The position numbers and the translations under genes are program-made. The notes under the pieces are model-generated. The model ran no database searches and was not told the origin of the DNA. It saw only the letters and a list, made by a program, of their open reading frames with translations. A stretch of 64,000 nucleotides of DNA from Streptomyces sp. AM 2-1-1 (GTDB lineage: Bacteria; Actinomycetota; Actinomycetes; Streptomycetales; Streptomycetaceae), in contig NZ_CP119147.1 in the NCBI RefSeq assembly GCF_029167645.1, positions 62,001 through 126,000 on the forward strand, given 5' to 3'. Below, piece after piece: positions 1,787-18,479 of this stretch (position 1 is its first letter; every line of letters begins with the position of its first letter).

Positions 1787-1872
1787 CTGTGCCTGGTCTG
1801 GTCCTGTTCCGGGACCTGGGACACCCCGGTGTCTGTGCGCGCCGGGGTGCGTTCGCGGCTCGGGGGGGGGTG

Positions 1873-3096
1873 TCAGACGGTTGCCGCCGGCGGCCGGGAG
1901 AAGCCGTCGAGTCCGGCGGGGTGCTGTCGCAGGCCGGCCGGGGTCAGCCAGTCGAAGGTGTCGTGGACCGCGGGTCCCAGGCCCAGCCCTTCGGTGATCT
2001 GTTCGCGCAGGCGGTTGGAGGCGAAGGCGCCGATGACGTTCATCTGGGCGTCTCTGTAGTGGCGTTCGACCTCGTGGCCGGAGGTCACTCCGAAGGCGCC
2101 GTGGATCTGTACGGCGCGTCCGGTGACCTGGACGGCCATTTCCGTGGCGTACACCTTCAGCATGCCGATCAGGTGCTGGGCGGATCTGCCCGCCGCGCGC
2201 TCGTCGGCGGCGCGGCGGGCGAGTACCCAGCCGGCGTCGATCTGTGCGCGGGACTCGGCCAGTTGGGCCTGGACGCCTTCCATGTGTGCCAGGGGGCGGC
2301 CGAACGAGACGCGTTCGTGGGCGTGCCGGACCGAGGCGGTCAGTGCGGATTCGGCGGTGGCGAGGGCGGCGACCGAGACGAGGAGCCATCCCCAGGTCAT
2401 TCCCTTGGCGAGTTCGCCGAACGGGACGGGTACGACGTCTTCCCGGGCGACGGGTACGTCGGAGAGGACGAGGCCGCCCCAGGGCATGCCCCGCAGTCCC
2501 ATGTGTGCTGTTTCGTAGCGGTGGACGCCGGGCTGGTGCAGATCGACGAAGGCCAGGCACCATTCCGGGCCGGTGTCGCCGTTCTGTCGCTCCCTGCGGG
2601 CGAGTGCCACGGCCACGTCGGCGGTGGGCGCGTTGGTGATGCGGGATTTCTCCCCCCGGATGACGAAGCCGCCCGAGGGCCCGCCGTCGGGGCGCACGGT
2701 GGTGCGGTACGTGCCGGCGTCGCTGCCGGCCGTCGGCTCCGCGATGGCGAAGCAGGCCGTCTTCTCGCCCGACAGCAGGGAGCGGAGCAGTTTGTCGTGG
2801 TGGCGCAGGTCGCCGTAGGTGGAGACGAGTTTGCCGCAGAGCAGCGCGGAGACGGTCGCCGACCAGTAGGTGCCGGAGCAGGCGCGGGCGAGTGCGTGCA
2901 TCGCGTCGATCTGGGTGGCTGCGCCGGCGCCGGTGCCGCCGTGCTCCGGGGGGTGGAAGAGCCGCAGGTATCCGCTGTCGACGATCTCTCTCCAGTTTTC
3001 GGGGGGTATGTGGCCGGTGGTATCGGTTTGGGGGGCGCGGGCGGTGATGCCGGGGAAGTTCAGCGCGGTGCGGTAGGGGTTGCGTTCGGTGTTCAT
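1873..3096 (-). CDS. acyl-CoA dehydrogenase family protein (partner subunit without the usual catalytic Glu)
   Basis: This 407-residue flavoprotein has the ACAD layout: N-terminal helices, a beta domain with the FAD/substrate motif CFAIAEPTAGSDAG at about 115-128, and a C-terminal helical domain with SFGRPLAHMEGVQ. Family members oxidise acyl-CoA or carrier-bound acyl groups at the alpha-beta bond with FAD. Where most carry YEGT near the C terminus, this one reads NVIGAFASN, so the standard Glu base is missing. It follows a second ACAD gene by 28 bases on the same strand, and that protein does retain a Glu there. By analogy with mycobacterial FadE pairs, the two may form one mixed enzyme; this is inference. 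The operon probably serves the neighbouring carrier-protein cluster, divergent from it. A strong hairpin follows. Confidence 0.85.
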   Translation of the reverse strand: MNTERNPYRTALNFPGITARAPQTDTTGHIPPENWREIVDSGYLRLFHPPEHGGTGAGAATQIDAMHALARACSGTYWSATVSALLCGKLVSTYGDLRHHDKLLRSLLSGEKTACFAIAEPTAGSDAGTYRTTVRPDGGPSGGFVIRGEKSRITNAPTADVAVALARRERQNGDTGPEWCLAFVDLHQPGVHRYETAHMGLRGMPWGGLVLSDVPVAREDVVPVPFGELAKGMTWGWLLVSVAALATAESALTASVRHAHERVSFGRPLAHMEGVQAQLAESRAQIDAGWVLARRAADERAAGRSAQHLIGMLKVYATEMAVQVTGRAVQIHGAFGVTSGHEVERHYRDAQMNVIGAFASNRLREQITEGLGLGPAVHDTFDWLTPAGLRQHPAGLDGFSRPPAATV

Positions 3097-3124
3097 CGCG
3101 GTGACGACTCCTCGTTCCTGGTTT

Positions 3125-4309
3125 CTAGCCGATTCCGAGCAGGTGGGCGGCGATGACGGGTTGGAGTACGGCGGGGCCGCCGCCCGTCTCCGAGAAGAAG
3201 AGGGCGTCGCGGAAGGCGCGTTCGGCCAGGCGGTCGCCGGTGGGGGTGAGGGGGCCGGTGATGCGGGCGGCCGCCTCGGTGACGGCGCGGGCGCAGGAGG
3301 CGACGAACAGCCGTGCGGCTGCGGCTTGCGGGAGGGTGGGGCGGCCGCCGGCGTCGAACAGGCCGGCGGTGCGGCGCAGCAGGCCTTGGGCCAGTTCGGT
3401 GCGGGTGGCGAGGTCGGCCAAGGCGAATCTGGTGCTCTGGGAGTGGGCGAGGGGGCGGCCGAAGAGGGTCCGGTCGCGGGAGGCTCCGATGGTGTCGCGC
3501 GCCAGTGCGCGCATGATGCCCAGCCAGGGGGCGGCGGCGAAGACCCAGTCGAGGGCCGCCAGGAGGGGTTCGACTTCGGCGGAGGCCTCGCCGGGGGTGC
3601 CCAGGACGGCGTCGGCGGGGGCGGGGCAGTCGTCCAGGACCAGGCGGCCCCAGGGGCAGGTGCGCATGGCGGTGGGGGCGCTGTCGCGGAGCAGCAGGCC
3701 CGGTGTGGTGCGGTCGAGGACGAATGCGGTTCTGGTGCCGTCCTGGTGGGCGGCGACGACGAGGAAGTGGTGGGCGTGGGGTGCGCCCGCGACGAGGTCG
3801 AGTTCGCCGGTGAGGACCCAGCCGTCGTGGTCGGAGGTGCTGGGCCGTGCGGTGACGGCGGGGGTCAGGGAGGCGCCCTGTGTCTGGTGGAGGGAGAGTG
3901 CGCCGAACCACTGTCCCGAGGCCATCGGGGGGAGGTAGTGCTCGCGTTGGGCGGGGGTGCCGAAGGCGCGCAGGGGCACTGTCACCAGGACGGCGTGGAC
4001 GGTGAGGGCGAGGGCGAGTCCGGGGTCGCGGGAGCCTTCGGCGAGTCCTTCGAGGAGTTCGCAGGTGTCGGCGGCGGAGAGTCCGCGGCCGCCGAGGGCC
4101 CGTGGGACCAGGGGTCCGGTGAGGCCGCGGCCGTGCTGTGTGTCGGCGAGGCGGGTGAAGAGGCCGGTGTCCCACCGGCGTTCGTCGTCGCGGGCCGCGG
4201 TGGTGGGCCATGCGAGCCGGCCGGCGAGTTCCCGGCTCTCGGCGAGCAGTGAGGTCCCGGCGGTGCCGTCGTCTGTGCGGGGGCCGGCCGGGGATTGCAA
4301 GAGCGCCAT
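3125..4309 (-). CDS. acyl-CoA dehydrogenase family protein (subunit with candidate catalytic Glu)
   Basis: This is a 394-residue divergent acyl-CoA dehydrogenase. The C-terminal helical domain is clear (RTLFGRPLAHSQSTRFALAD), while the FAD loop is weak: LSLHQTQGASLTPAV replaces the usual AxTEPxAGSD. The segment FFSETGGGPAVLQPVIA aligns with the family's YEGTxEIQ, so a Glu is present in the catalytic position. It is the first gene of a two-gene leftward operon, with its partner starting 28 bases downstream. The weakened FAD loop here and the missing Glu in the partner are complementary losses, as expected for a heteromeric enzyme with one working site. The substrate is unknown; context suggests a carrier- or CoA-bound intermediate of the adjacent cluster. 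Confidence 0.8.
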   Translation of the reverse strand: MALLQSPAGPRTDDGTAGTSLLAESRELAGRLAWPTTAARDDERRWDTGLFTRLADTQHGRGLTGPLVPRALGGRGLSAADTCELLEGLAEGSRDPGLALALTVHAVLVTVPLRAFGTPAQREHYLPPMASGQWFGALSLHQTQGASLTPAVTARPSTSDHDGWVLTGELDLVAGAPHAHHFLVVAAHQDGTRTAFVLDRTTPGLLLRDSAPTAMRTCPWGRLVLDDCPAPADAVLGTPGEASAEVEPLLAALDWVFAAAPWLGIMRALARDTIGASRDRTLFGRPLAHSQSTRFALADLATRTELAQGLLRRTAGLFDAGGRPTLPQAAAARLFVASCARAVTEAAARITGPLTPTGDRLAERAFRDALFFSETGGGPAVLQPVIAAHLLGIG

Positions 4310-4714
4310 CAGATCTCCCCTGTTCTTCGCTCGGCCGCGTGGTCCGGGCTTTTTCGAGGTCTTGTTTCCTCGTCCGTCGCCGCGTTGCCGAGAAATAGCG
4401 GGAACAACATGTCAAGTGCATTCGCTTCGCACACTCTAGCGAGGAATTCTTTTCGGGCGGCGGGTGTCCTTTCACAACGCGGGCGAGGATTGTCCTACGT
4501 CAGCGGGTGTGACGCGGCATGACGGTTCCTGACATCGTTCTGACATTCAGGTCGTTGCCTGTCGCCGCAGGGGGGAGCAGGATGTGGTTCAGCGCTCCGC
4601 ACCGGTCCCGTTGCTCCGAAGTGTGTGCCGGGGACCTTGCGGGCCTTCTCCTTCCCGGATCTTTGCCGAGCCGGTCGGGAATTCAATTCGAATACGCCGA
4701 GGGAAAGGAATGCC
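4310..4714. promoter_or_regulatory. divergent promoter region of the carrier-protein cluster
   Basis: About 400 bases separate the leftward dehydrogenase pair from the rightward biosynthetic series, and no gene fits here. It must carry promoters for both transcripts. It is locally less GC-rich around 4380-4470 and just before 4715. I see no clear operator, though the ArpA-like regulators encoded further right are obvious candidates for control. Confidence 0.45.
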
Positions 4715-5869
4715 ATGCCTTTCGATGCCGGAGAGGACAGCCTGCCGGGGCTTCCCCGCATATCCGACGCGACCCTGCGGGACTCAGCGCACATGGCGGG
4801 GGTCGAATTCGGTCCCAAGGATGCCGCAGCCATCGCGGAACGGCTGGTGAGGACCGGTGTCGAGCTGGTCGAGGTGGGCATGGTGTCCGGTCCGGACTCC
4901 AAGGACGCCGATCTCGTCCTGGCCACCCATGAGGCCGTCGGCCCGGAGCGCAGCATGACGCTCGTCGTGGTGCGGGACCGGCGGCAGGTGGCCCGGGCCC
5001 TGGACGAGGCGGAGCGGCTCGGGGTGCGGCACATCATGTACTCCATTCCCACCTCCGAACAGCACGCGCAGCTGAAGCTGGACTCGCCCAGTCTCAAGTT
5101 CCTCCAGGCGCTGGCCCGTTCGGCGATCGTTCAGGCCAAGGAGCGTGGCTTCCATGTGACGTTCAGCGGCGAGGACGGTGCCCGCACGCCCCGGGAGCGG
5201 CTGGTTCCGTACGTGACGTCGGGGTTCGAGGCCGGTGCCGACCGGTTCCGGCTGGCGGAGACCGTGGCGTGTCTGTCGCCGTGGCGGATGCAGTCCGTGA
5301 TCGGTGACCTGACGGCCATCGACGGGTCCGAGATCGAGATCCACTCGCACAACATGCTGGGTATGGCGGTGGCCAACTCCCTGGCCGCGGTGCGGGCCGG
5401 TGCCCAGTGGGTCTCGGCGACCGTCGGCGGGATCGGTGAGCGCGGTGGCAACGCCCCGCTGGCGGAGCTCCTGACGTCGTTGCGGGTGATGCACGGTGAC
5501 ACCCGTTTCGATCTGACGCACCTGACGGAGCTCTCGCGGCTGGCGCTGAAGGGGGCGGGTCTGGGCGACGCCTTCCAGTCGGGTCCCACCGCCCCGCACG
5601 CTTTCGCGTACGAGCTTCCCGGCCAGCTGAGTTTCCCCGAGGCGTACGAGACGTTGCCCGCGGAGGTCGTCGGGAACCGGCGGGAGCTGCGGGTCCGCAC
5701 CCGGCTGACGACGGCGCTGGTCGCGTGGGCGCTCGAAGGGTCCGGTGTCGGGACCGACGTGGGCGCTTTCACCGACTGGCTGAGCGAGCGCCAGAGGGAC
5801 GCCGGCGGCCCGTTGCTGGACCGGGACGCGGTCCGCAAGGCGGCCGTGGACTTCCAGGCCGTCGTCTGA
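4715..5869 (+). CDS. HMGL-like (DRE-TIM metallolyase) aldolase/synthase
   Basis: This is a 384-residue TIM-barrel enzyme of the family that includes isopropylmalate and homocitrate synthases, HMG-CoA lyase and 4-hydroxy-2-oxovalerate aldolase. The metal/catalytic signature DATLRD is at 18-23 and the metal-binding HSHN at 210-213, followed by a glycine-rich GGIGERGGNAPL. Such enzymes make or break a C-C bond next to a keto group using a divalent metal. DATLRDS in place of DTTLRDGEQ makes a true isopropylmalate or homocitrate synthase assignment unsafe. The ATG at 4715 has an AAAGGA ribosome site. It heads the rightward operon, 79 bases before a LysW-like carrier, so it may supply or extend the amino acid that is loaded on the carrier. 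Confidence 0.75.
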   Translation: MPFDAGEDSLPGLPRISDATLRDSAHMAGVEFGPKDAAAIAERLVRTGVELVEVGMVSGPDSKDADLVLATHEAVGPERSMTLVVVRDRRQVARALDEAERLGVRHIMYSIPTSEQHAQLKLDSPSLKFLQALARSAIVQAKERGFHVTFSGEDGARTPRERLVPYVTSGFEAGADRFRLAETVACLSPWRMQSVIGDLTAIDGSEIEIHSHNMLGMAVANSLAAVRAGAQWVSATVGGIGERGGNAPLAELLTSLRVMHGDTRFDLTHLTELSRLALKGAGLGDAFQSGPTAPHAFAYELPGQLSFPEAYETLPAEVVGNRRELRVRTRLTTALVAWALEGSGVGTDVGAFTDWLSERQRDAGGPLLDRDAVRKAAVDFQAVV

Positions 5870-5948
5870 CCTTCTCTTCCGCGGGCCTTCCGGCCCCGGC
5901 CCCTCCCCCCCTTTTTTTCCGTTCCCTCTTTCGAAACCGGAGTCGTCC

Positions 5949-6134
5949 ATGAGCACCGCAACCCTGACCGGCACCTGCCCCGAGTGCGAGACCGGTCTGA
6001 CCGTTCCACCGCTCGTGCGGGGCGAGACGCTGTCGTGCCCCGAGTGCATGCTGACCCTGCGGGTCGAGGACATCGAGGACGGCGTCCTGACCCTGCAGAT
6101 GGTGGAGGTCAAGCTCCGCGACTGGGGCCAGTGA
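5949..6134 (+). CDS. LysW-like amino-group carrier protein (AmCP) ending in Gln
   Basis: This 61-residue acidic protein has the LysW zinc ribbon: Cys10 and Cys13 in CPEC, Cys30 and Cys33 in CPEC. It ends in the family tail DWG. LysW proteins bind the alpha-amino group of glutamate or aminoadipate through the side-chain carboxylate of their C-terminal Glu (DWGE), protecting it during conversion to ornithine, lysine or, in Streptomyces, secondary metabolites such as vazabitide and azinomycin. Here the last codon is CAG, giving DWGQ, so the attachment carboxylate appears to be an amide. One base change would restore Glu, so sequence error must be excluded. Its neighbours are LysX-, LysY- and LysZ-like genes in the expected order, with LysX starting one base after the stop. 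Confidence 0.88.
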   Translation: MSTATLTGTCPECETGLTVPPLVRGETLSCPECMLTLRVEDIEDGVLTLQMVEVKLRDWGQ

Positions 6135-6135
6135 C

Positions 6136-6987
6136 ATGGCCGGCAGCATCGCCGTCGTCGCGGACCGGATCGGCTGGGAGGAACGCCGGCTGATCGAGGC
6201 GGCCCCGCGGTTCGGTCTGCGGATCGACTGGGTCAACGACGAGTCCCTGTGCCTGGGGGCGGCGCACGCCGTCTCCTCCCTGGAGGGGTACGACGCGCTT
6301 TTGGTCCGCAGCCGCAGTTACACCCGCGGCGGGCTGATCGCGACGATGGCCGAGGCGAACGGGGTGCGGGTCCTCAACTCGGCCGCCTCGATCCACGCCT
6401 GTGAGAACAAGCTCGTGCTGCGCGCCGTGCTGCGCGCGGCCGGGATACCCGTGCCCGATTTCCGGCTGGCCCTGTCGCGCAAGGACTTCGAGCGGGCGCT
6501 GGGGGAACTGGGCACGCCCGTGGTGCTCAAGCCGGTGTACGGGGGGATGGGCAAGCGCGTCACCCTGGTGCGCGACGGTGACCTGGCGCACTCCGTGTAC
6601 GACTACGTCGAGGATCTCGGGCACGCCTTCGAGCAGGCCTGCCTGGTCGAGCCGTATCTGGGGGGCGGGTCGGTGCGCTGCCTGGTCGTCGGCCGGGAGA
6701 TCGTGGCGGCCGCCGAGTTCGAGAGCGCGGGTGCCGACTGGCGCAGCAACGCGGCGCTGGGCAACCGGAGCCGGTCCCTGAGCGAGGATCCCGAGGTCCG
6801 CAAGAGCGTCGACGGTGTCGTGGACCGGCTGGGCGCCGGGATCTACGGGGTGGATCTCTTCAGGACCGCGACGGGCCCCGTCGTCAACGAGGTCAACCAC
6901 GCCCCCGCATGGCGGGGTGTGGCGTCCACGACGAGCACGGACATCTCGTCGGCCGTGCTCGGACATCTGCGGGAGACACTGGGATGA
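6136..6987 (+). CDS. LysX-like ATP-grasp ligase (carrier loading)
   Basis: This 283-residue protein matches LysX/RimK-family ATP-grasp ligases in length and motifs: N-terminal domain to about 95, the ATP-binding strand VVLKPVYGGMGKRV at 129-142, and the metal/active-site segment NEVNHAPAW near 255-263. LysX joins the alpha-amino group of aminoadipate or glutamate to the C-terminal Glu side chain of LysW using ATP. In typical LysX the last motif reads EVNHTxEF; HAPAW here suggests a changed acceptor or amino-acid pocket. It starts one base after the carrier stop and its own stop overlaps the next start as ATGA, so the series is translationally coupled. The reading frame is intact. Confidence 0.87.
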   Translation: MAGSIAVVADRIGWEERRLIEAAPRFGLRIDWVNDESLCLGAAHAVSSLEGYDALLVRSRSYTRGGLIATMAEANGVRVLNSAASIHACENKLVLRAVLRAAGIPVPDFRLALSRKDFERALGELGTPVVLKPVYGGMGKRVTLVRDGDLAHSVYDYVEDLGHAFEQACLVEPYLGGGSVRCLVVGREIVAAAEFESAGADWRSNAALGNRSRSLSEDPEVRKSVDGVVDRLGAGIYGVDLFRTATGPVVNEVNHAPAWRGVASTTSTDISSAVLGHLRETLG

Positions 6988-8068
6988 TACGTGTGGGAAT
7001 CGTCGGGGCTTCGGGGCTGGCCGGAGGCGAACTTCTCCGGCTGGTCATCCAGCACCCCGATGCAGACCAGCCTTTCCTGGGCTGGAGTTCTTGTGCAGGC
7101 CGGCGCCCTGCGCAGGCTCCATCCCGGAAAAGCTGCGCCTCGATCTCGGGCTGGTGATCGAGCCGGTGGACGCGGACGGGGTGGCCGAGCAGTACGGCGT
7201 GATATTTTTTTTTGCGCGCGGCGCGGTATCCGCCCGGCTCGCCGCTGAGCTCGCCGATCGTGTGGCGACTGCGTGATCGACCTCTGGGGTGCTTTCCGGA
7301 TCAGCGGCCAGGAGCTGCACGAGCAGTGGTATCCGAAGGCCGGGCAGTCGGAGGAACTTGCCGGCGCGCACTTCGTGTACGGGGTGCGGGTGATCGTCGG
7401 CGACGCGCTCGAGAGTGCCGCGCTGATCGCCGTCGCCGGTTGGTACGCGAGCGGCCATTGCGCTCGGGCTGGTCCCCCTGGCCACGGGGGCTGGAGTCTG
7501 CGCCCTGGAGGACCGTGGTCGTGGATGGCAAGAGCAGTTACGGCGGCCGAGGTCTGCAGTTGCGCGGACGCGAAGGCCTGCACCCCTTGCCCCGTGGTGC
7601 CGTCGCCTTCCACGCGCCGACCGTCCACCATCATAACGCGGAGGTCGCCACGGTTCTCCAGCGGCAGAGGACGGGCGGGATCGAGCTAGCTGGCGCCACG
7701 TCGGCGTGCGAGGTCTTCCACGTGTCGCAGGCTTCTCGTCAACTGCTACGTGTTCACCGACGAGGAGGTGGACCTGCGGGAGCTGCATTCTGCGTACGCC
7801 GCGGTTCTGCAGGGGCCGTTCCTTCGCACGAGGTGCGCCGCAGCGACGAGACGCTGATCCCCGTACCCGACCCCCAGGCGGCGCTGGAGTCCAACTACTG
7901 CGACGTGACGGTCCTGCACGATGCGGACGGTGGTCGCATCGTCGTCCTGGCGGCGCTGGACAACCTGGTCGAGGGTGCGGCGATGTCGAAGCGGTGCAGG
8001 CGCTCAACCTGCGCTACGGGCAGCCGGAGGGGCAGGAGCTGACGGTGTTGCCCCTCTTGCCGGCATGA
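6984..8068 (+). pseudogene. LysY/ArgC-like semialdehyde dehydrogenase, broken by frameshifts
   Basis: The start (ATG 6984, overlapping the upstream stop) gives the Rossmann opening IRVGIVGASGLAGGELLRL of N-acetylglutamyl/LysW-aminoadipyl phosphate reductases. Family blocks then appear in successive frames: HPEKLRLDLGLV, VIDLWGAFRISGQELHEQWY, VVVDGKSSYGGRG, FTDEEVDLRELHSAYAAVL, and the C-terminal block VTVLHDADGGRIVVLAALDNLVEGAA. At least four frameshifts are needed. In the active-site motif, normally NPGCYAT, the sequence at about 7430-7450 reads VAGWYAS, so the catalytic Cys codon is TGG (7441-7443). A run of nine T at 7205-7213 is striking in such GC-rich DNA. As written the enzyme cannot be made. 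It is either a pseudogene or poor sequence; the intact form would reduce the carrier-bound acyl phosphate to the aldehyde. Confidence 0.8.
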
Positions 8069-8890
8069 GCGCCGAGTCGGTGTCGCCCCTCAGGGTCGAG
8101 CTCGGCAAGAGTAGCCTGGAGGGCCTGGACGGCACATCGATGGGGCGATCTCGCCCGGCACGCCGGGCGACGCCCCGCTGGTCCTGGTGCACGGCCTGGT
8201 CCAAGCCCCTCAATTAGCTCCAGCCGCGTTGCTCGCGATCCTCGGCGGTCGGCAATGACCAGTACGGCAACCAGAGACGGTGGACCACGCCGGGGGTCAT
8301 CGAGGACATCGAGGCCGTCAGCGCGCAGCTCGACGAGGACGTGCTGGGGCGAGCTGGAGCGCAGCGATGCCGCGGCAGGCCAGTTGGTGGGCGGCGAAGG
8401 CCTGGTGAGCGCCGAGGAAGGAGTGAGCGGTGGTGGTGGCTTGAGGAGCGGCTCGTCGACTTGAACAGCTTCGTCGGGCCGATCACCGGGGTGGATGCGG
8501 CGTACCTGAAGAACGTGGTGACCGGTCATGCCTGCCTCATCGCGCCGCTGGCGCGCAACGCGGGCGGCCACGAGGTCAGCACCGATGCCGACCGGGCCGC
8601 CGCGGCAGGTAGCCGGGGCGATGGGTGCGGCCGATCTCGTGCTGGTCTACCGCGCGTTGCCGCCGGTGTCGCGCACGCCGCTGGTCGAGGACCGTGCAGT
8701 TGGCACGGATCACCGACGCGGCGGCGGCCGACACACTGGACTGAGGTGCTGCGGGCTTTATGCGCGAGCAGCTTAGGAGCGGGGACGGAGGCGCAGGAGC
8801 ACGGGGCAGAACAGGTCGTCGTCGTTTGCGGGCCTTCCTGCCGGTCTCTAGGCGGCCGGCGCGACTTGCCCCGTCGTCGCGGGAAGCACG
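8065..8890 (+). pseudogene. LysZ/ArgB-like carrier-bound amino acid kinase, broken by frameshifts
   Basis: It starts with ATG 8065, overlapping the previous stop as ATGA. Pieces of the amino-acid kinase fold are recognisable in different frames: VELGKSSLEG (usually VKxGGSLL), PLVLVHGLVQAP (usually VLVHGGGP), TGVDAAYLKNVVTGHACLIAPLA, VSTDADRAAAAVAGAMGAADLVLV (the conserved NVNADxAAAxxA region) and AQEHGAEQVVVV near the end. LysZ phosphorylates the side-chain carboxylate of the carrier-bound amino acid before LysY reduction. Several frameshifts, and LGKSSL in place of the glycine-rich ATP loop, mean the gene is non-functional as written. The 3' end is approximate. Confidence 0.72.
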
Positions 8891-8894
8891 AGGA

Positions 8895-9464
8895 TTGCCG
8901 GCGGCGAAATTCCGACTGCCCGTAGTCGTCGGCGGTGCCTGATCGCTGAAACGGCTGCGCGAGCAGTTCGAGGATCTGGGTTCGGACACGGACGCCGTGG
9001 ACGCGGCGTCGGTGCCCGCCCGTCTCGGCGGCCGGTACCAGGCGATCGCGCTGAGCGGCACCAAGGTGCGGGCCTACGACAGCGGTTACTACCGGCCGCT
9101 GATCGACTTGGTCATGAGCAGTGACGTCCCGGTCCTGGGGATCTGCGGAGGGATGCAGATCCTGGCGGTCGCGGCCGGCGGCAGCCTCGTCGAGGGCCCG
9201 CAGCGGGTCGGGGGGTACGAGGCGCACGTCGACGAGGAGGAGCCGCTCTTCTCCTACGTCAAGCCCACGGTGACGGTCTTCCACCGCCACACCCTGTACT
9301 TGCGCGAGGCGCCGGCGGGTTTCCGGTCCATCGGCCGCTCGGAGCTGGCGCCCGTGGAGTTCCTGCGCTCCGAGGACGGCCGGATCCTCGGCTCGCAGGC
9401 GCACCTGGAGTTCCGGCCCGACGGCCTGGAGATCATGCGCGGCTTCGCCCAGCTCTACCGGTGA
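8895..9464 (+). pseudogene. class I glutamine amidotransferase with an in-frame TGA
   Basis: From 8943 to 9464 the frame is open and encodes a class I GATase domain: the nucleophile elbow LGICGGMQILAVAAGG carries the catalytic Cys, and AHLEFRPDG near the C terminus supplies the His-x-Glu pair (usually HPE). The upstream N-terminal strand KFRLPVVVGGA lies in the same frame but is cut off by TGA at 8940-8942, directly before SLKRLREQFEDLG. The N-terminal start (TTG 8895) is a guess. GATases hydrolyse glutamine to ammonia for a synthase partner, or cleave gamma-glutamyl bonds. No obvious synthase partner is next to it. In a cluster whose carrier ends in Gln, an amidase acting on that residue is an attractive but untested idea. 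Internal re-initiation could give a shortened protein. Confidence 0.7.
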
Positions 9465-9523
9465 GCGCTTTCGCGCGCGAGCCGGTCTCCTTTTTCCGCC
9501 CACCCACCAGAAGGACGTGTCCC

Positions 9524-10645
9524 ATGAGTGTTCCGGAAGAACCGCAGGCCCCCGCGTTCGTCACCCGTCTGCACGGCAGTGGCGGCAGTCTCCGGGGGTG
9601 GGTCGTGGTCGATTCGCTGGTCGACGGGCTGGCGATGGGCGGTACCCGGATGACCGCCGGTGTGAGCGAGGAGGAGGTGGCCGGGCTGGCCCGTGACATG
9701 ACCGACAAGTTCACCCTGGCGGGCCTGCGCATCGGTGGTGCCAAGGCCGGCATCGTGGCCGACGGCGCGGCGGACCGTGAGGAGACGTTCCGCACGTTCG
9801 GGCGGACGGTCAAGCCGTTGCTGCACGGGGGCATCCACCTCGGTATCGACATGGGGGTCACCCCCGCCGACCGGGCCGTCTTCTTCGCCGAGGCGGGTTA
9901 CGACCCGCGCTTCAGGGCGGGCGCGCCGGACATGCCCATCGACTGGCGTACCTATTACGAGCCGTTGATCGATGCCACCGGGCACGGTGTCGGGGTGGCG
10001 GCGGTGACCGCTCTGGAGGCGCGTGGCCACCAGGGTCCGGCGCGGGTCGTGATCCAGGGCTTCGGCGCGGTGGGCCGGGCCGTCGCCCGGTTCCTGGAGG
10101 CGCGCGGGCACGTCGTGGTGGGTGTCGCCGATGTGGAGGGGACCATCAGCGCGGACCGTCTCCCGGTGGCGGCGCTGGTCGCCGCGACGGACGAGTTCGG
10201 GCGTATCGAGCGTTCGGGTCTGCCGCAGGGGGTGACGCTGTCGGCGGGGGCGGACGCCTGGCTCGACGTCGACGCCGACCTCCTGGTCCTCGCCGCGCAG
10301 AAGCACGCGCTCACCGCGGAGAACACCCACCGGCTGCGTTGCGGGGTGGTCGTCGAGGGTGCGAACCTCGCGTCGAGCGGCGCCGCCAAGGAGAAGGCGG
10401 CCGGTGCCGGGGTCACCCTGGTGCCCGGTGTCATCGCCAACATCGGGGGGGCGGCCTCCGCGGCGCTGGCGGTCACCCGGGTCGTTCCCTTCGGGCTGGC
10501 GGCGGACGCGCGCAAGGCGTGGGTCTTCGACTGGGTCGGGGACCGGGTGCGGCAGAACACGGTGGACCTGCTGGAGATCGCGGCGGGCCGGGCGGGCGAC
10601 CCGCTCCCGGAGCTGCTCGCGGCCCGACGGGCGGACCGGCGGTGA
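9524..10645 (+). CDS. Glu/Leu/Phe/Val dehydrogenase family oxidoreductase
   Basis: This is an intact 373-residue amino acid dehydrogenase. The catalytic lysine motif GGAKAG is at 71-76 and the NAD-binding Rossmann loop GFGAVG at 179-184, with GVIANIGGAAS towards the C terminus. The family interconverts alpha-amino acids and 2-oxo acids with NAD(P)H and ammonia. The ATG at 9524 has an AAGGA site nine to ten bases upstream, in preference to earlier in-frame starts. Its length is close to leucine dehydrogenase rather than the longer glutamate enzymes. It sits between a GATase, which could supply ammonia, and an adenylate-forming ligase whose GTG start overlaps its stop, so it probably makes or consumes an amino acid of the pathway. 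It is one of the undamaged genes within a damaged stretch. Confidence 0.85.
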   Translation: MSVPEEPQAPAFVTRLHGSGGSLRGWVVVDSLVDGLAMGGTRMTAGVSEEEVAGLARDMTDKFTLAGLRIGGAKAGIVADGAADREETFRTFGRTVKPLLHGGIHLGIDMGVTPADRAVFFAEAGYDPRFRAGAPDMPIDWRTYYEPLIDATGHGVGVAAVTALEARGHQGPARVVIQGFGAVGRAVARFLEARGHVVVGVADVEGTISADRLPVAALVAATDEFGRIERSGLPQGVTLSAGADAWLDVDADLLVLAAQKHALTAENTHRLRCGVVVEGANLASSGAAKEKAAGAGVTLVPGVIANIGGAASAALAVTRVVPFGLAADARKAWVFDWVGDRVRQNTVDLLEIAAGRAGDPLPELLAARRADRR

Positions 10646-12389
10646 GCGCGGAGCAGGGGGCGGTGTACCCCGGTCCGGCGGTCGCGACGTCCGACGAGAA
10701 CGCCGCGGAGTACCGCAGGCGCGGGTGGTGGCGCGAGGAGACGTTCCTGGACGATCTGCGGCGTCAGGCGCGGGAGCGGCCGCACAAGCTGGCTGTCGCG
10801 GGCCGGCGGCTACCACGAGGCGCGTACGGACTTCCTCGACTACTCCGAGCTCGCCGTTTTTGACGGAGCGTCTCGCCAGGTGCGCTGCTCGAACTCGGTG
10901 TGGAGCGGGGTGACTTCGTCGCGGTCCAGCTCCCAACCGGTGGGAGATCGTACCGTTGATGTTCGCCTGCATCCGGGTGAAAGCGGTGATCCGCCCCACC
11001 GCGCCGATCTGCCGGGAGAACGACCTGCGCTACCGCCTCTCGCTGACCGAGGGCGAAGGTCTGCGTCACGGTCGACGAGTGGGAGGGCTACCCCTGGCGA
11101 AGACGCTGATCGCGCTCCAGGGCGGGAACTGCCCCTCGAGCACGTCGTGGTGGTCAGGGGGCACACCCCCGAGCAGGCCGTGGACTTCCACGACCACTTT
11201 CGTCGCCGAGCCCTGGGAGCGGAGGTGGGCCGGCCGGGATCCGGCCGGCCGTGAGCTGGGTCCCGACGATCCCTTCATCCGTGCTCTTCACCTCAGGTAT
11301 CCATGGGCGACTCCAAGGGGGTGCTGCACAGCCAGAACACCATCCACTCGGCGGTGCGCGGCTACGTGGACACTTTCCTGCTGCGGGGCGAGGATCTCGT
11401 CGCCGCGCTGACGACACCCCGATCCACTACTCGGGCTTCTGCCAGGGTGTCCTGGCCGGGGTCATGCCGAAGGCGGCACCGTCGTTCTGCCGGGACCTGG
11501 ACCGGACAACAGTCTCCTGCCCGCCCTGATCGAGGCAAGTACAGGGCGACGCTCCCTGTGCGGGCCGCCGCCCACCCTCACCGTGTCGCCGAGTCTCAGC
11601 GCGCGGAGCCGCGGGACGTGTCCTCGCTGCGGCATGTCGTCACCGGTGCCGCGCCTGTCCTGCAGCAGCTGGGGGGCGATTGTTGCTGGAGATGTTCGGG
11701 GTGCAGACCTACTCAGGGTGCGGGATGTCGGAGTTCTGTCCAGTGACCATCACCCGGCTGGACTACAACCAGGACCGGGCGGCGTACAGTCACGGGCGTC
11801 TGATCTACTGTTTGGCGATCCGGATCGATGCTTGCCACGATCCCGGGCAGCGTGCCTCGGAGGGCCGGCTGCGGGTGCGCGGGGCGCGCCTGGCGCTCGG
11901 CTACTACAAGCGGGCCGACGCGTTCGACGCGGAGATGAACGCGGAGGGCTGGTTCGCCACCGGTGATGTGGCCCGTGAGGACGTACGCGGCGGGATCCGG
12001 CTGCTGGGCCGGGCGAAGGACGCGATCCTGCGGGACGGCATCGTCGTGCTGATGGCCGAGCTGGAGGCCATCATCGCCCGGCATCCAAGGTGACCGAGGT
12101 GGCCGTGGTCGGCACTCAGCAAGGCGGCTGGACGACCTGATCCTGGCGGCGGTCGTGCCGCGGGGCGACGACCCGCCCTCCCTGGAGGAGGTCCGCGCCC
12201 AACTGGCGGCCGCCGGCCAGGAGGCGCGGTTCCTCCCCGACCGGCTGGAGGTGCGCGCGGCGCTGCCGCGAGACGCTGACCGGCAAGGTCCGCAAGATCG
12301 AACTGCGGGAGCGGTACGCCGCCAGGAGCCGGTGGAGGCCGGCGACGCAGGTAGGGCGGCCGGTCCGCAGTCCCCTCCCCGACCCGTAG
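10642..12389 (+). pseudogene. EntE-like adenylate-forming (aryl/acyl-AMP) ligase, broken by frameshifts
   Basis: The GTG at 10642 overlaps the dehydrogenase stop (GTGA). The N terminus (EYRRRGWWREETFLDDLRRQ) resembles 2,3-dihydroxybenzoate-AMP ligases. Further blocks occur in shifting frames: GDSKGVLHSQNTIHSAVRGY (phosphate-binding loop), TPIHYSGFCQGVLAGVM, VQTYSGCGMSEFCPVTITRL, GWFATGDVAR and LLGRAKDAILRDG (hinge), and LTGKVRKIELRERY carrying the A10 lysine just before the TAG at 12387. Such enzymes activate a carboxylate with ATP and pass it to a thiol, CoA or amine. At least six frameshifts make it non-functional as written. No carrier-thiolation domain is visible nearby. Confidence 0.78.
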
Positions 12390-12416
12390 GAGAGAGCAAG
12401 GTTCGATCGCGCGCCG

Positions 12417-13691
12417 GTGGCCATGTCGGCCACCTCGCCGCCGACGAGGAAGCCGATGCGGCGCCGGGCGGCTGGGGAGCGGGTCGTGTCCCTGGCCGCG
12501 GTGGATCGGCTGCTGGCCCTGCCGGTCCTGGCGCAGCGGTTCGCCGCGGCGGCCGCCGCGGCCTACGGTCCGGTGACCGGGGACCGGGCGCTGCGGGTGG
12601 CGGCGGCCGGGCTGGGGGCCGGCGCGGTCTGCCGACCGATCCGGGCCTGGTGGTCTGCAGGCCGAAGAGCAAGCCGTTGACTGCTCGCGCTGATGCTGGC
12701 GGTCGACTGTGACGTGGTGGTGCCGGTGCCGAGCTGGGTGAGTCACTGGGCGCCGGCCGCGCTGGCGGTGGCGTGCCCTGCCGGCGGCCGTGCGCCCCTG
12801 CGAGGGCGGCGTGCCCGATCCCGACGCCCTGGTCGGGGCGGTGCGGCGGGCACGGGCCGCGGGCGGGATCCGATGTGCGTGGTGGTCACCCTGCCCGGAC
12901 AACCTGAGCGGCACGATCGCCCGGGCGGCCACCGTGAGCCGGCTCGCCGAGGCCGCCCGGGAGCTGGACCTGGTCGTCGTCCCTGAGTGATCACTGCGAC
13001 CTGGTCTTCGATGTCGCCGACCGGGCGCTCTCCCCGGCGGTCTTCGCACCCGAGAGGAGCGGTGGTAACCACCGGCCTCACCAAGAACCCGGCGCTGGGC
13101 GGGTGCGCGGACAAGCGTCGCCCGCCTGCCCGACAGCGACCTGGGGCGCACGCTGCACGTGCGGCTGGCCAGCGTCGCCAGCCAGGACCTGGTCGAGCAC
13201 CGCGGCCCGGTGCACGCTGCCGCGGCCTACGCCTTCGAGGAGCCGCCCGAGGTCGTCGCCCGCGTGGCCGCGAGCCTGCGGCTGCACGAGGTGGTGGTGC
13301 GGGCGGCGCAATGGCAGCTCACCGCCGCCGGCGCCCGCCTGACCCCAGGTGCGGGCCACCTGCTACCTCTACCCCGACTTCGGAACCCTGCGCCCGCACC
13401 TGGCCCGTGTCCTCAACGTGGGGGGCAGCGGGGAACTGGCGGAGCTGCTCGCGCGCCGGTACGCGGTGGGGGTGCTGCTGGCCACGGCGTTCGGTGAAGC
13501 GGAGCGCCTGCTGCGGATCAAGGCTGCCACCGGCCTCGCGGCTGTACGGGGAGAGCGACGCCGAGCGCGGCATTGCGCTGAGCGTGGCCGACCCGTTGCG
13601 CCTGCCGTGGGTGAGCGCCTGCCTCGACCGCGTCGCCGAGGTCCTGGGCGAGTCCCGCCCTCCGTACCGGACGCGGCCGCTTCTCCGCTGA
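12417..13691 (+). pseudogene. PLP-dependent class I/II aminotransferase, broken by frameshifts
   Basis: Fold type I aminotransferase blocks appear in order but in different frames: AYGPVTGDRALRVAAAG, ALMLAVDCDVVVPVPSWVS, VTLPDNLSGTIARAATV, ARELDLVVV, then VVTTGLTKNPALGG with the PLP lysine in LTKN, the long helix VARVAASLRLHEVVVRAA, and a C-terminal LATAFGEAERLLRIKAA. The start is uncertain (GTG 12417 or ATG 12423). An AGGAGAG-like site lies just upstream at about 12388. The stop is at 13689-13691. The intact enzyme would transfer an amino group to a 2-oxo acid or aldehyde, a natural follow-up to a LysY-type reduction. Multiple frameshifts disable it as written. Confidence 0.75.
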
Positions 13692-13767
13692 ACACGCCGC
13701 CCGGCGCGTTTTTCGACACCGTCTGGCGCACCGCCGGATCCCACCGACCTGCAGGCCAGCGACAGCC

Positions 13768-14714
13768 ATGTCCGTCTTCCTCGAGTGCGAGTACAAAGGC
13801 CGGCGGTACGCGGGGCTGGACCTGCCCGCGGACGGCGCGTTCCACGAGCTGTACGCGGTGCGGGAGGGGCAGTTGCGGGATGCCCTGGTCGCCGGTTCGG
13901 GCCCGGCGGATGTCGCCAAGGCCCTCAGGGCGGGCGGGGAGGTGCTGTCGGTCGCGGTGGGGGACCGTGAACTGCGTTTCCTACGCCCCCGTTGCCCACG
14001 TCGACGAACAACTGACTGATCAACGGCTCTACGGGGACCCACCGGGCCCAAGTTCGACGTTGCAGCCTGGACCTGGACGAGGCGTTCGCCGCGCCGAACT
14101 ACTACATCAAGGGCTTCTGGTCCTGGCTGCGCACGCCGGACGAGCCGCTCGTCACCCCGGTCGATCCGCTCTGGCTGCTGGAGGAGCCGGAAGTCGTGCT
14201 GGTCTACGTCAACGACGACGAGGGGATCCCGCACTACGCGGGCTACACGTTCGGCAACGACCTCAACGACATCGGGCTCCACCTGGAGAAGCCGTGGGCG
14301 TGGACCCCCTACGCCAAGCTGTGCGAGACCTCCATCGCCCCCTGGCTCTTCCTGGAGGACCCCCCGGCGGCGGTGAGCGGCCGGGTCGTCATCGAGCGCG
14401 GGGGGGCCACGGCGTGGGAAGGCGCGTTCTCCTGCGGCGCGGACTCCATCTTCCAGCGGTTCGGCGACATGACGCAGTACCTGTTCTCCTACCCGGCGCT
14501 CCGCCGTCCGGGCCTGGTGAACTACCTGTTCATGGGGGCGGACAAGGCCACCTACCACGACGGTTTCCGGATCGAGGACGGTGACCGCATGGTCATCGAC
14601 GTGACCAGCCACGGGGTGTCGCTGCCCAACGTCGTCCGCTTCGGCCCCAAGGCCCCGCCGGCCGTCCGCTTCGGCCCTCAGGCCGCCTCGGTCACCGCGT
14701 CCGCCCTGCCGTAG
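13768..14714 (+). pseudogene. fumarylacetoacetate hydrolase (FAH)-fold enzyme with a frameshifted middle
   Basis: The first 84 codons from ATG 13768 (MSVFLECEYKGRRYAGLDLP) and the last about 205 codons (to TAG 14712-14714) are both in good frames. They are offset from one another between about 13980 and 14110, so one or two frameshifts divide the gene. The C-terminal part carries FAH-family hallmarks: GYTFGNDLNDIGLHL, PYAKLCETSIAPWLFL, FRIEDGDRMVIDVTSHGVSL. Members are metal-dependent hydrolases, decarboxylases or dehydratases acting on beta-dicarbonyl or 2-keto acids. It is the last gene of the biosynthetic series and its end overlaps the convergent MerR gene by 37 bases. Confidence 0.72.
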
Positions 14715-15103
14715 CGGATCGCGGGGACCTGGGTGCGGGGCTGCTGGTCGCGGCGGACCGCCTCCAGGTAGCCGACGATCGCCTCGTGGCTGCGGAGCAG
14801 GCACTGGAGGCGGTGCGCCATGCTGTCGCGTTCGCGCTCCAGGGTGGCGATCGTCTCGGGCGTGGCGCCGGAGATGTGGATGGCCGCGGGGTCGTCGATG
14901 CAGGGCAGGACCTGCTTGATGACCCGTGTGGGCAGGCCGGATTCGAGCAGTCCCCTGATCTGCAGGACCCGGTCCACGCACCCCGGGGCGTAGTCCCGGT
15001 ATCCGTTCGACGCCCGTGAGGGCACCAGAAGTCCCTGTTCCTCGTAGTACCGCAGCATTCGGCGCGGCGTTGCCGTGCGCTCCGAGAGCTCACCGATCCG
15101 CAT
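14678..15103 (-). CDS. MerR family transcriptional regulator
   Basis: This 141-residue protein has the winged-helix MerR DNA-binding domain at the N terminus (RIGELSERTATPRRMLRYYEEQGLL, then SNGYRDY) and a short coiled-coil effector region to the end. No metal-binding cysteine pattern is obvious, which points to a small-molecule sensor. The ATG at 15103 directly precedes MRIGELS, the usual family start. It is divergent from the MFS transporter, with a dyad between them, the classical layout for a MerR regulator controlling the exporter and itself. Its 3' end overlaps the FAH-fold gene. Confidence 0.9.
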   Translation of the reverse strand: MRIGELSERTATPRRMLRYYEEQGLLVPSRASNGYRDYAPGCVDRVLQIRGLLESGLPTRVIKQVLPCIDDPAAIHISGATPETIATLERERDSMAHRLQCLLRSHEAIVGYLEAVRRDQQPRTQVPAIRYGRADAVTEAA

Positions 15104-15169: not shown

Positions 15170-16384
15170 ATGTCAGCTTCTCAAACAGAGCTCCCCGGCA
15201 CGTCCTTGCCGGCAGAGAGCCGCAAGCTCCCCATGTCCCCGCTCCTGGCCCTGTCGACGGCGGCCTTCATGGGGATCCTGACGGAGGCCCTTCCCGCCGG
15301 GGTGCTCCCCGAGATGGCCCGGGACCTCTCGGTCAGCGAGTCCGCGATGGGCCAGTCCCTCACGATCTACGCGATCGCCACCGGCCTCTCGGCCATCCCG
15401 CTGTCCGTCACCACGGCGGCCTGGGCCCGCAAGAAGCTGCTGCTCCTGGCGGTCCTGGCCTTCGCCGTCGCCAACACGGTCACGGCACTGTCGTCCAGCT
15501 ACCCCCTGACGATGGTGTTCCGGTTGATCGCGGGCGTCGCCGCGGCGGCCGTGTGGGCCGAACTCGTCGGCTACGCGCGGCGGCTGGCCCCGCCCCATCT
15601 GCAGGGCCGGGCCATCGCCATCACCATGGCCGGTGTCCCGCTCGCCCTGTCGCTCGGCATCCCGCTGGGCACCTTCCTGGGCGGCCTGTTCGGCTGGCGC
15701 CTGACCTTCGGCCTGGTGACCCTGGTCTCCGTGGCCCTGCTGGGGTGGATCTTCGTCTCCGTCCCCGACGCCCCCGGCAAGCGGCCCGAAGCCCGTGAGC
15801 CGATCCTGAAGGCGCTGGCGCTGCCCGGTGTCTCGGCGGTGCTGTTCGTGGTCGCGGCCTACGTCCTCGCCCACAACATCCTGTACACGTACATCGCCAC
15901 CTTCCTCGACGAGAACGACATGGGCGACTCCCGTGACGTGGTGCTGCTGGTCTTCGGTATCGCCTCGGTGGTGAGCATCCTGATCACCGGTGCGCTGGTC
16001 GACCGCAGGCTGCGCCAGCTGACGATCGTCAGCAGCGCCCTGTTCCTGGCCGCGGCGGTCCTCCTGGCCCTGCTGGCCGGCAACATCGTCGTGGTCTACG
16101 GCGCGATGGTGCTCTGGGGCCTGGGCTGGGGCGGTGTCACGACCCTGCTCCAGACCGACGTCACCGACGCGGGAGGCGACCGGGGGCAGGCGCTGCTGGT
16201 CACCACGTGGAACTCCTTCATGGCCGGCGGCGGCGCGGTGGGCGGCATCCTCCTGGGCGGTATCGGCCCCGACTCCTTCGCCTGGAGTGTCCTGGCACTC
16301 ATGGCGCCGGTGCTGGTCGTGGTGGTCCTGGCCCGCAAGCACGCGTTCCCCGCGAAGCGGCCGGACATGGTCGAAGCGGCCTGA
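15170..16384 (+). CDS. MFS transporter (drug/metabolite efflux, 12 TM type)
   Basis: This 404-residue integral membrane protein has about 12 predicted hydrophobic segments and belongs to the sugar/drug efflux branch of the major facilitator superfamily (AraJ/YdhP-like). The segment FMGILTEALPAGVLPEMARDL in the first helix and loop is typical of that group. A middle cytoplasmic loop lies at about 197-212 (VPDAPGKRPEAREP). It probably exports the product of the adjacent cluster or a related compound by proton antiport. The start has GAGGA eight bases upstream. Control is likely by the divergent MerR protein. Confidence 0.88.
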   Translation: MSASQTELPGTSLPAESRKLPMSPLLALSTAAFMGILTEALPAGVLPEMARDLSVSESAMGQSLTIYAIATGLSAIPLSVTTAAWARKKLLLLAVLAFAVANTVTALSSSYPLTMVFRLIAGVAAAAVWAELVGYARRLAPPHLQGRAIAITMAGVPLALSLGIPLGTFLGGLFGWRLTFGLVTLVSVALLGWIFVSVPDAPGKRPEAREPILKALALPGVSAVLFVVAAYVLAHNILYTYIATFLDENDMGDSRDVVLLVFGIASVVSILITGALVDRRLRQLTIVSSALFLAAAVLLALLAGNIVVVYGAMVLWGLGWGGVTTLLQTDVTDAGGDRGQALLVTTWNSFMAGGGAVGGILLGGIGPDSFAWSVLALMAPVLVVVVLARKHAFPAKRPDMVEAA

Positions 16385-17429: not shown

Positions 17430-18185
17430 TCATCGCTCCCCGGGCGCCGGGCTCTTCCCGGCCGCGGCCGGTGCGTCCCCCGATGCGTCCGCCGGTGTGT
17501 CCGCCGGTGCGCCGGCCGGGGTGGGCGCTGCCGCGGCGGCGGCCCGGGCCTCGGCCTCGGCGATGAGGTGGGCGCCGCGCTCGGCGCACAGGTCGAGCTT
17601 GCCCAGGACCGGGGGGACGGCGATGCTGGGCAGCACGGTGCGCAGCAGTACGGAGATCCGCCGTGGCAGGTCCGCGTATCCGGACAGGACCTGCGACATG
17701 TGCTGGAGGCCGGCGAAGGAGCCGACGAACAGTTCGGCGGTGGCGGCGAGGTCGACGTGCGCGAGCAGTTCCCCGCGCCGCCCGGCCTCCTGGAGGATGG
17801 CGAGGTTGACTTCCGTCCAGGTACGGAAGGGGCTGCTGCGGTCGAGTTCGCCCGCTTGCTGGTCCAGGCTGAGCCGGACGCTGGCGCGCACGAGGCCGTC
17901 CGTGTGGAGCCGTTCGGCGAGCACCAGGCCCGAGTCCACTATCTCCTGCAGTTTCACGGCCTGCGGCAGGAGTGCCTCCTCGGCGCCGCGCTGCTGTTCG
18001 TCGAGGATGACCTGGGCGAGTTCCTCTTTACCGCTGAAGTGGAAGTACACCGCTCCCTTCGTCATGCCGGCCGCCGCGGCGATCTCGTTGACGGTCGTCG
18101 CCCGGTAGCCCTCCCGGTCGAAGACCTCCGCCGCCGCCTCCAGCACCCGGCGCCGTGTACGTACCGATCGATCCTGTTTAGCCAC
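17430..18185 (-). CDS. gamma-butyrolactone receptor-like TetR regulator (ArpA/ScbR family)
   Basis: This 251-residue TetR-family protein has the N-terminal HTH (RVLEAAAEVFDREGYRATTVNEIAAAAG, then KGAVYFHFSGKEELA) nearly identical in pattern to ArpA/ScbR receptors, and the family's ligand-pocket Trp in PFRTWTEVNLAILQEA near 120. Known members repress promoters containing ARE palindromes and release DNA on binding a butyrolactone or butenolide. An Ala/Pro-rich C-terminal tail (about 220-251) exceeds the usual length. It is divergent from an AfsA-like synthase, the classic receptor/synthase arrangement, and probably controls itself, the synthase and the biosynthetic cluster. Confidence 0.92.
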   Translation of the reverse strand: MAKQDRSVRTRRRVLEAAAEVFDREGYRATTVNEIAAAAGMTKGAVYFHFSGKEELAQVILDEQQRGAEEALLPQAVKLQEIVDSGLVLAERLHTDGLVRASVRLSLDQQAGELDRSSPFRTWTEVNLAILQEAGRRGELLAHVDLAATAELFVGSFAGLQHMSQVLSGYADLPRRISVLLRTVLPSIAVPPVLGKLDLCAERGAHLIAEAEARAAAAAAPTPAGAPADTPADASGDAPAAAGKSPAPGER

Positions 18186-18213
18186 CGTGCTCCCTGCGGG
18201 TACTGCCGATGCG

Positions 18214-18240
18214 TTTTAAAGACTGAACCGTATGAATTTA
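18214..18240 (-). promoter_or_regulatory. possible ARE operator before the receptor gene
   Basis: An AT-rich patch in GC-rich DNA, starting 29 bases upstream of the receptor start, reads TTTTAAAGACTGAACCG followed by TATGAATTTA. Its size, AT content and position fit an autoregulatory ARE plus promoter. The palindrome is imperfect, so this is a candidate only. Confidence 0.4.
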
Positions 18241-18402
18241 ACAGCCCGTACGTCGTCAGAGGCCGTCGCGGGCCCCGCACCGTCCGGCCGAGGGGGCCCG
18301 TAACGGGGAAACTCGACCGAAAAGGCCCGTGCCACATGCCTTCCACCTGCACGTGTATCGAAGGATCCGGAGGAAGGCTGGCTACTTTCCAGGGGCCATT
18401 GC

Positions 18403-18430
18403 AAAACATACTCCGGCGTACGTATCTTGT
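18403..18430 (+). promoter_or_regulatory. possible ARE operator before the afsA-like gene
   Basis: The 28-base segment contains ATACTCCGGCGTACGTAT, a dyad with ATAC and GTAT arms flanked by AAAAC and CTTGT, resembling ScbR/ArpA-type AREs. It lies 50-77 bases upstream of the synthase GTG, where receptor repression would be expected. Confidence 0.5.
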
Positions 18431-18479
18431 CGGCGCGGGCTGCGTGGGGCAGTCGGCCACAGACGGAGGAGCGTGCAGC

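Follow-up and report, generated by a model that had tools for sequence, protein, structure and literature searches.

In the characterised amino-group carrier proteins (AmCPs) the last residue is the Glu of an EDWGE tail, which serves as the covalent attachment site (PMC10433800, PMC9303977), and a GSWGR motif in the ligases ArgX and LysX recognises this tail (PMC10433800). Among secondary-metabolite clusters, BGC23a of Streptomyces sp. QL37 adjoins a gamma-butyrolactone subcluster and encodes LysW, RimK, an AMP ligase, and a 2-isopropylmalate synthase. According to the main text of that study, deletion of lysW-rimK led to the loss of both iso-maleimycin and lugdunomycin, expression of BGC23 with the angucycline cluster in S. 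coelicolor M1152 gave both compounds, and a similar cluster is present in 27 strains, five being named with both, including S. shenzhenensis and S. filamentosus (PMC12022981). Here a related cluster is described from Streptomyces sp. AM 2-1-1, within a stretch of 64,000 nucleotides (the window) representing bases 62001-126000 of a 7.134-Mb contig (C1). The cluster type has already been described; as judged from sequence, a carrier ending in Gln together with a class-I glutamine amidotransferase-like protein (GAT) in the place of the release enzyme appears to be new in the literature searched.

The genes of the cluster run in the order of two acyl-CoA dehydrogenase (ACAD)-fold genes (minus strand), an HMGL-like gene, lysW, lysX, lysY, lysZ, GAT, a Glu/Leu/Phe/Val dehydrogenase-like gene (GDH), an AMP ligase (AMPL), an aminotransferase (AT), and an FAH-fold gene (plus), a MerR gene (minus), and an MFS gene (plus). 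All of the genes named in a first-pass annotation of the same DNA (HMGL, LysW/X/Y/Z, GATase, dehydrogenase, EntE-like ligase, AT, and FAH) were recovered in profile scans. The ACAD pair it reported is real but is located to the left of position 4715, where the cluster had been taken to start, and the four carrier genes do adjoin but are not in pathway order, since the genes are arranged W-X-Y-Z while the reactions would run W-X-Z-Y. The LysW-like Zn-ribbon carrier and the LysX, LysZ, and LysY homologs expected of an AmCP system are thus present, with LysW scoring under the curated cut-offs (22.6 vs 27 bits for Pfam, and also under that of NCBIfam) and its position, cysteines, and DWG tail in agreement with the assignment. 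Elsewhere the genome encodes dapB (C1:1773640) and another ArgC homolog (C1:6061954), which shares 39% identity with that of the cluster, so the cluster does not belong to primary metabolism; the primary lysine or arginine pathway had been named beforehand as the finding that would speak against a specialised cluster.

The isopropylmalate synthase, LysW, RimK, and AMP ligase described for BGC23a (PMC12022981) all have counterparts in the window by profile. By homology the cluster is assigned to the maleimycin/iso-maleimycin family, the product of strain AM 2-1-1 itself being predicted. The S. shenzhenensis locus (L030), which we infer to be the S. shenzhenensis cluster meant in PMC12022981, carries all ten genes of the core, arranged as in the window. 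Furthermore, the LysX proteins of S. showdoensis (P0238) and S. filamentosus (P0158) are 74% and 72% identical to that of the window, respectively, and fall in the same tree clade. The gene combination had initially been considered unfamiliar; it is already in print as the BGC23a type of Streptomyces sp. QL37, so that the case of an already described cluster largely applies, with the text of PMC12022981 consulted giving no full gene list. A literature text search, with most subscription papers outside its reach, found no paper pairing 'DWGQ' with 'LysW', and the words 'Gln', 'glutamine', and 'amidotransferase' are absent from the main text of PMC12022981, its supplements lying outside the search.

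The LysW of the window ends in RDWGQ instead of EDWGE, and therefore lacks the Glu of the attachment site, and its LysX contains GGMGK instead of GSWGR. All three solved LysW chains that were matched end in DWGE. A LysX-based scan of named genomes yielded 52 loci. LysW is present at 51 of them, in 52 copies that all have the DWGQ end, the remaining locus (L015) starting inside lysX. The same end was present in all 120 of the database matches listed (of 164), the window's own included, and in 29 of 30 LysW loci from a sample of 297 genomes of the family, own included, the thirtieth (L094) being of the EDWGE type. Among the 120 listed database relatives the LysX motif was GGMGK in 112, GGMGR in seven, and GGLGK in one. 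Pfam PF21344 had no match in the window's own genome and is therefore unsuitable for finding Gln-type carriers.

To establish how these features are distributed, a family set was compared with a set of EDWGE-type regions. The family set contained 58 loci, most of them found through LysX itself: the 52 loci above, four plasmid loci, L129, and L130. For the EDWGE-type set, 394 genomes of the same family were searched with an EDWGE-type LysX, giving 72 match places of which the best 54 were all examined. The other 18, the weakest matches, are members of the window's family (16 in genomes with known Gln-type LysW, plus L190 and L191, which were taken as the same loci as L013 and L032 and left uncounted). 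With plasmid locus L126 included and the pairs L118/L155, L119/L146, and L121/L154, each made up of adjacent stretches from a single genome region, counted once, the EDWGE-type set comprised 55 regions.

GAT was found in 57 of 58 family loci (L024 ends before GAT) and in none of the 55 EDWGE-type regions, whereas an M20 (LysK-like) peptidase was found in 54 of 55 EDWGE-type regions (not L169) and, in a tblastn search of these stretches with two M20 queries, in 0/58 family loci. The M20 gene follows lysZ in L120 and is fused to lysZ in L117, and GAT occupies that place in the window's family. GAT directly follows lysZ in eight loci laid out and in four annotated plasmid loci, with one open reading frame (ORF) between them in L129, and its Cys, His, and Glu are invariant in 12/12 aligned sequences, the Rhodococcus type and L129 included. 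LysX contained GGMG[KR] in 58/58 family loci and 0/55 EDWGE-type regions, the latter having GSWGR (46), [SA]SWGN (7), GSWGH (1), or GSGGR (1). LysW could be read in 52 of the 55 EDWGE-type regions and ended in Glu in all (51 EDWGE, one EDFGE), while the last residue in the family was Gln in 54 loci, Glu in three (RDWGE), and off the contig in one. HMGL was present in 56/58 family loci (L015 and L019 begin after HMGL) vs 0/55, and transketolase (L120 query) in 0/58 vs 53/55, a distribution that sets the family apart from transketolase-type clusters and upholds the initial assignment to secondary-metabolite AmCP clusters. In L168 and L170-L175, all EDWGE-type, LysX has [SA]SWGN in place of GSWGR and the M20 gene is kept.

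The HMGL-like protein scored 194 bits against the homocitrate synthase profile and 70 bits against that for hydroxy-oxovalerate aldolase, and it contains a GERGGN stretch, as in homocitrate/isopropylmalate synthases, for which we take this stretch to be a signature. A reading as a pyruvate aldolase is weaker on both counts. An acetyl-CoA-type enzyme fits the C-C bond formation predicted in the first-pass annotation.

Results are consistent with a combined mechanism in which an AmCP pathway of the maleimycin family would follow a C5 + C2 route on a carrier made as a Gln pro-form, with GAT deamidating the carrier and replacing LysK; this sequence-based proposal is given a little less than an even chance. 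All of its enzymatic steps are predicted, building on observed gene content, conservation, the mutual exclusion of GAT and M20, and the LysX motif change, and on the published finding that a related cluster depends on lysW-rimK. LysX would load glutamate onto LysW, and LysZ and LysY would convert the side chain into the gamma-semialdehyde while the amine is masked by the carrier, so that closure to pyrroline-5-carboxylate would be prevented. HMGL may then add acetyl-CoA to the carrier-bound aldehyde, or to the alpha-keto acid following deamination by GDH/AT, and C5 (glutamate) plus C2 (acetyl) would give a C7 skeleton, and maleimycin likewise has seven carbons. A cyclopentane-fused maleimide or analogue would then result once the acetyl CH2 is joined to C-alpha to close the ring, followed by dehydration (with the FAH-fold enzyme as a candidate) and amidation driven by the AMP ligase.

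The carrier-specific part of the proposal is that LysW would be translated with a C-terminal Gln, which is a gamma-glutamyl amide, and that GAT would first deamidate this Gln to Glu and later cleave the gamma-glutamyl isopeptide to release the product; acting as a gamma-glutamyl amide hydrolase, one enzyme could carry out both reactions. A Gln pro-form carrier unlocked and then emptied by a dedicated class-I amidotransferase replacing LysK, representing a second AmCP lineage across many actinomycetes, is put forward tentatively, as a reading that may well prove wrong. In L039 and L056 (S. aurantiacus and S. aureoverticillatus) and in L129, only HMGL-W-X-Y-Z-GAT was found, with no GDH, AMPL, AT, or FAH matches in the stretch read, which reached only ~4-8 kb downstream of GAT. 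The persistence of GAT in these loci suggests a function tied to the carrier and HMGL, not to the AMP ligase.

Several observations weigh against a GAT-processed pro-form. In sequence GAT is nearest to the glutaminases of GMP synthases and not to gamma-glutamyl hydrolases. Three Rhodococcus-type loci, L122 (R. fascians A21d2 plasmid), L123 (R. erythropolis plasmid), and L130, contain the whole core, GAT, and GGMGR, yet their LysW ends in DWGE, and thus GAT is not present only because of Gln; the three are near-identical, close relatives of each other. Since the family and EDWGE-type sets correspond largely to two clades, the association may go back to a small number of independent events, and the LysX motif tracks clade and not the last residue. 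HMGL follows GAT as closely as the lack of M20 does, and GAT may therefore act in product chemistry, as an ammonia supply, and not in release. An M20 peptidase encoded elsewhere in the genome, outside the loci searched, could release the product. The ACAD pair of the window type was not found at L030, and the product may differ from iso-maleimycin. Furthermore, both Diels-Alder substrates, iso-maleimycin included, are termed achiral with a tetrasubstituted alkene (PMC12022981), a property that the pathway in its simplest form fails to produce: the hydroxyl of iso-maleimycin cannot occupy the position expected from the simplest ring closure, so that a further step would be needed.

The LysX tree separates the Rhodococcus type from the Gln-ended rest with support of 93/92 and 80/80. 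The tree contains 64 rows, was drawn with a midpoint root, carries a long-branch warning, and leaves out L037 (which is in the 58-locus test). It supports this split only and is not taken as proof that Glu came first. A consistent reading, with the order not proven, is that GAT replaced LysK first and that Gln became possible or useful later. The Rhodococcus-type clusters (L122 5404-20401; L123; L130) also carry a flavin monooxygenase pair. After the plasmid match, a connection with the Rhodococcus fascians att locus was considered, and none is claimed.

The most serious alternative is RimK- or pearlin-like charging, in which the cargo is joined to the alpha-carboxylate of the last carrier residue and the side chain may be Gln or Glu, with GAT releasing the product or acting otherwise. 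RimK and the pearlins both form an alpha-peptide bond, LysX belongs to the RimK family, a Gln side chain offers LysX no free gamma-carboxylate for activation, and the Glu-ended sister clade has the same LysX type. The pearlins also provide a precedent for a C-terminal scaffold (PMC9303977). If the side chain were irrelevant, however, it would be odd for Gln to be present in 54/54 of the non-Rhodococcus family loci with LysW read, and no peptidase was recognised in the core; charging of this kind is considered possible but doubtful.

Alternatively, GAT may only supply ammonia for the amide or imide nitrogen of the product as a partner of the AMP ligase, with an unlinked peptidase performing the release and Gln being deamidated otherwise or never. 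The resemblance of GAT to the glutaminase part of GMP synthase, the imide nature of the known product family, and the co-occurrence of HMGL and GAT in both sets all suit this role. It is nevertheless judged unlikely, as GAT is kept in L039, L056, and L129 where the stretch read downstream has no AMP-ligase match, and M20 matches are missing from all 58 family loci.

Less likely again, the strain may simply carry an ordinary member of the known iso-maleimycin cluster type whose Gln end is neutral, a feature of the lineage without consequence for the mechanism. Membership in the family and the single clade formed in the LysX tree would agree with this; on the other hand, characterised AmCPs hold the substrate covalently at the last residue (PMC10433800, PMC9303977). 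In addition, the change in the tail is accompanied by the LysX motif change and by M20 absence. Finally, class-I amidotransferase chemistry passes through a glutamyl thioester, and this chemistry and the conserved Gln end would allow GAT itself to load the carrier by transamidation (Cys attacking the C-terminal Gln, ammonia leaving, the substrate amine taking the acyl group, and LysX acting elsewhere), but none of the 58 family loci lacks LysX (though most were found by LysX) and the Glu-ended Rhodococcus carriers could not be loaded so, making this highly improbable.

A genome search located the LysX gene in two 100% identical copies (C1:68136, plus strand, and C1:7064695, minus strand), and the inverted arrangement of the two places the region within an inverted repeat of both chromosome ends. 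The inverted stretch at the other chromosome end aligns end to end with window bases 3-27371. The two copies of this terminal inverted repeat (TIR) are mosaic, with long identical runs (e.g. 1863-7061) alternating with mismatch- and gap-rich stretches. In the window lysY, lysZ, the GAT start, AMPL, AT, and FAH are frameshifted, while in the second copy (L008) lysY, lysZ, AMPL, and AT are intact ORFs and FAH is a single ORF whose final residues are apparently shifted. For GAT, copy 2 is clean over the first half and the window over the second; GDH reads open in the window but has a broken start in copy 2. Because the genes broken in the window are mostly open in copy 2, the frameshifts are likely assembly errors. 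A pseudogene reading is unlikely, as the copies differ in blocks, each open where the other is broken. Both assembled copies of the repeat (window 1-27371) carry error blocks, at different places. The first-pass annotation had made no mention of the duplication of the region, the Gln at the carrier's C-terminus, or the absence of M20.

Table 1. Predicted genes of the AmCP cluster and its surroundings in the window, with coordinates of intact copies in L008 where available
Feature	Position	Strand	Basis and remarks
ACAD-fold protein 1, accessory	1873-3096	minus	Pfam PF00441/PF02770/PF02771
ACAD-fold protein 2, accessory	3125-4309	minus	Pfam
HMGL-like synthase, nearest homocitrate/isopropylmalate synthases, GERGGN	4715-5869	plus	Profiles; start codon uncertain
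LysW-like carrier, C-terminus RDWGQ	5949-6134	plus	Sequence; identical in both TIR copies; Gln end kept in relatives
LysX/RimK-like ATP-grasp ligase, GGMGK replacing GSWGR	6136-6987	plus	Profiles, alignment
LysY/ArgC-like reductase	6984-8068	plus	Frameshifted in window; intact L008:11638-12696 minus
LysZ/ArgB-like kinase	8065-8890	plus	Frameshifted in window; intact L008:10844-11641 minus
GAT, class-I glutamine amidotransferase-like, Cys-His-Glu triad	8901-9464	plus	Profiles; open from 8997 in window
GDH, Glu/Leu/Phe/Val dehydrogenase-like	9605-10645	plus	Profiles; relatives ~25 residues longer at start
AMPL, EntE/DhbE-like AMP ligase	10642-12354	plus	Profiles; intact L008:7429-9120 minus
AT, pyridoxal phosphate fold-I aminotransferase-like	12423-13691	plus	Profiles; intact L008:6071-7348 minus
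FAH-fold enzyme, AraD1/GguC-like (NCBIfam)	13768-14714	plus	One ORF L008:5091-5990 minus, last residues probably shifted
MerR-type regulator	14678-15058	minus	Profile
MFS transporter, export presumed	15206-16384	plus	Profile
TetR-like regulator beside AfsA	17430-18146	minus	By eye from sequence, not by profile
AfsA-type gamma-butyrolactone synthase	18609-19388	plus	Homology search
NmrA-like NAD(P)-binding protein, possibly gamma-butyrolactone pathway	19385-20311	plus	Profile

Comparison of the 52 loci from the LysX-based scan revealed a largely constant core (tblastn matches: HMGL 50, GAT 51, GDH 49, AMPL 49, AT 45, and FAH 42), with absent core genes mostly at contig ends (exceptions L020, L039, and L056). 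Recurrence of the gene block in loci found via LysX alone confirms the initial observation of it. Accessory genes varied, with flanks incomplete at some loci: an ACAD1 match was present in 11/52 and luciferase-like flavin monooxygenases (L045 query) in 14/52, never together, and an arylmalonate-decarboxylase-family gene was present in 30/52, adjoining HMGL in L030 (7480-8256 minus), with a possible role in product tailoring or self-protection. A plasmid of Streptomyces sp. NBC_00190 has the window's layout from the ACAD pair through MFS, and its record labels HMGL as 'isopropylmalate synthase' and GAT as 'gamma-glutamyl-gamma-aminobutyrate hydrolase family protein'. The nearest solved structures to the AMP ligase are salicylate/dihydroxybenzoate-AMP ligases, while for the FAH-fold enzyme a sequence match among PDB entries was not found.

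A second Gln-ended LysW gene is located in S. echinatus L014 (20034-20216 minus), ~10 kb from the first, and genomes G221 and G234 contain two LysW matches each. A DDE_5 transposase-like gene in L030 (4415-5599 minus) has similarly placed counterparts in many family loci, which is unusual for an insertion element. Within the repeat, the window also contains a P450-like ORF (21847-22992 minus) matching the C-terminal part of that family. The TetR-like (by eye), AfsA, and NmrA-like genes at window 17430-20311 resemble the gamma-butyrolactone subcluster BGC23b of QL37.

Taken together, a Gln tail, a changed tail-reading ligase motif, and an amidotransferase in place of a peptidase would point to a new activation and release step or to new attachment chemistry. 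If the pro-form mechanism is true, GAT would be a protein-glutaminase/gamma-glutamyl hydrolase with a protein C-terminus as its substrate. The iso-maleimycin pathway, for which the text of PMC12022981 offers the lysW-rimK deletion and cluster expression, would gain a concrete C5 + C2 route, and the sequence rule DWGQ + GGMG + GAT provides a way to find such clusters.

Among known systems, the window cluster shares an isopropylmalate synthase-like gene, LysW, RimK/LysX, AMP ligase, and gamma-butyrolactone genes with BGC23a of QL37 and the putative maleimycin cluster of S. showdoensis ATCC 15227, as described in the text of PMC12022981. It differs from the iso-maleimycin type in its ACAD pair, in place of which S. 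shenzhenensis L030 has the arylmalonate-decarboxylase-family gene; QL37 and S. showdoensis were compared by description and LysX. The DADH-type AmCP clusters (vazabitide A and s56-p1), to which the azinomycin and ficellomycin clusters are related, have LysW/X/Y/Z homologs in common with the window and build an unusual amino acid on the carrier. The transketolase acting on a carrier-bound aldehyde that characterises this type had no match in the family loci. Transketolase-type clusters, taken here as putative members of the DADH type, have EDWGE (one EDFGE), mostly GSWGR, M20, and transketolase, whereas the window's family has RDWGQ, GGMGK, GAT, and HMGL. The pearlins use a ligase family other than that of LysX. 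Their likeness to the window cluster is by analogy only, an amino acid being modified at the scaffold C-terminus and then released in PEARL pathways (PMC9303977). Finally, the LysW/ArgW lysine and arginine pathways of Thermus, Sulfolobus, and haloarchaea have in common with the window a Zn-ribbon carrier with a DWG tail, an ATP-grasp LysX, a kinase, and a reductase, and the window cluster differs from them in having Gln for the canonical C-terminal Glu and no LysK (M20) in the cluster.

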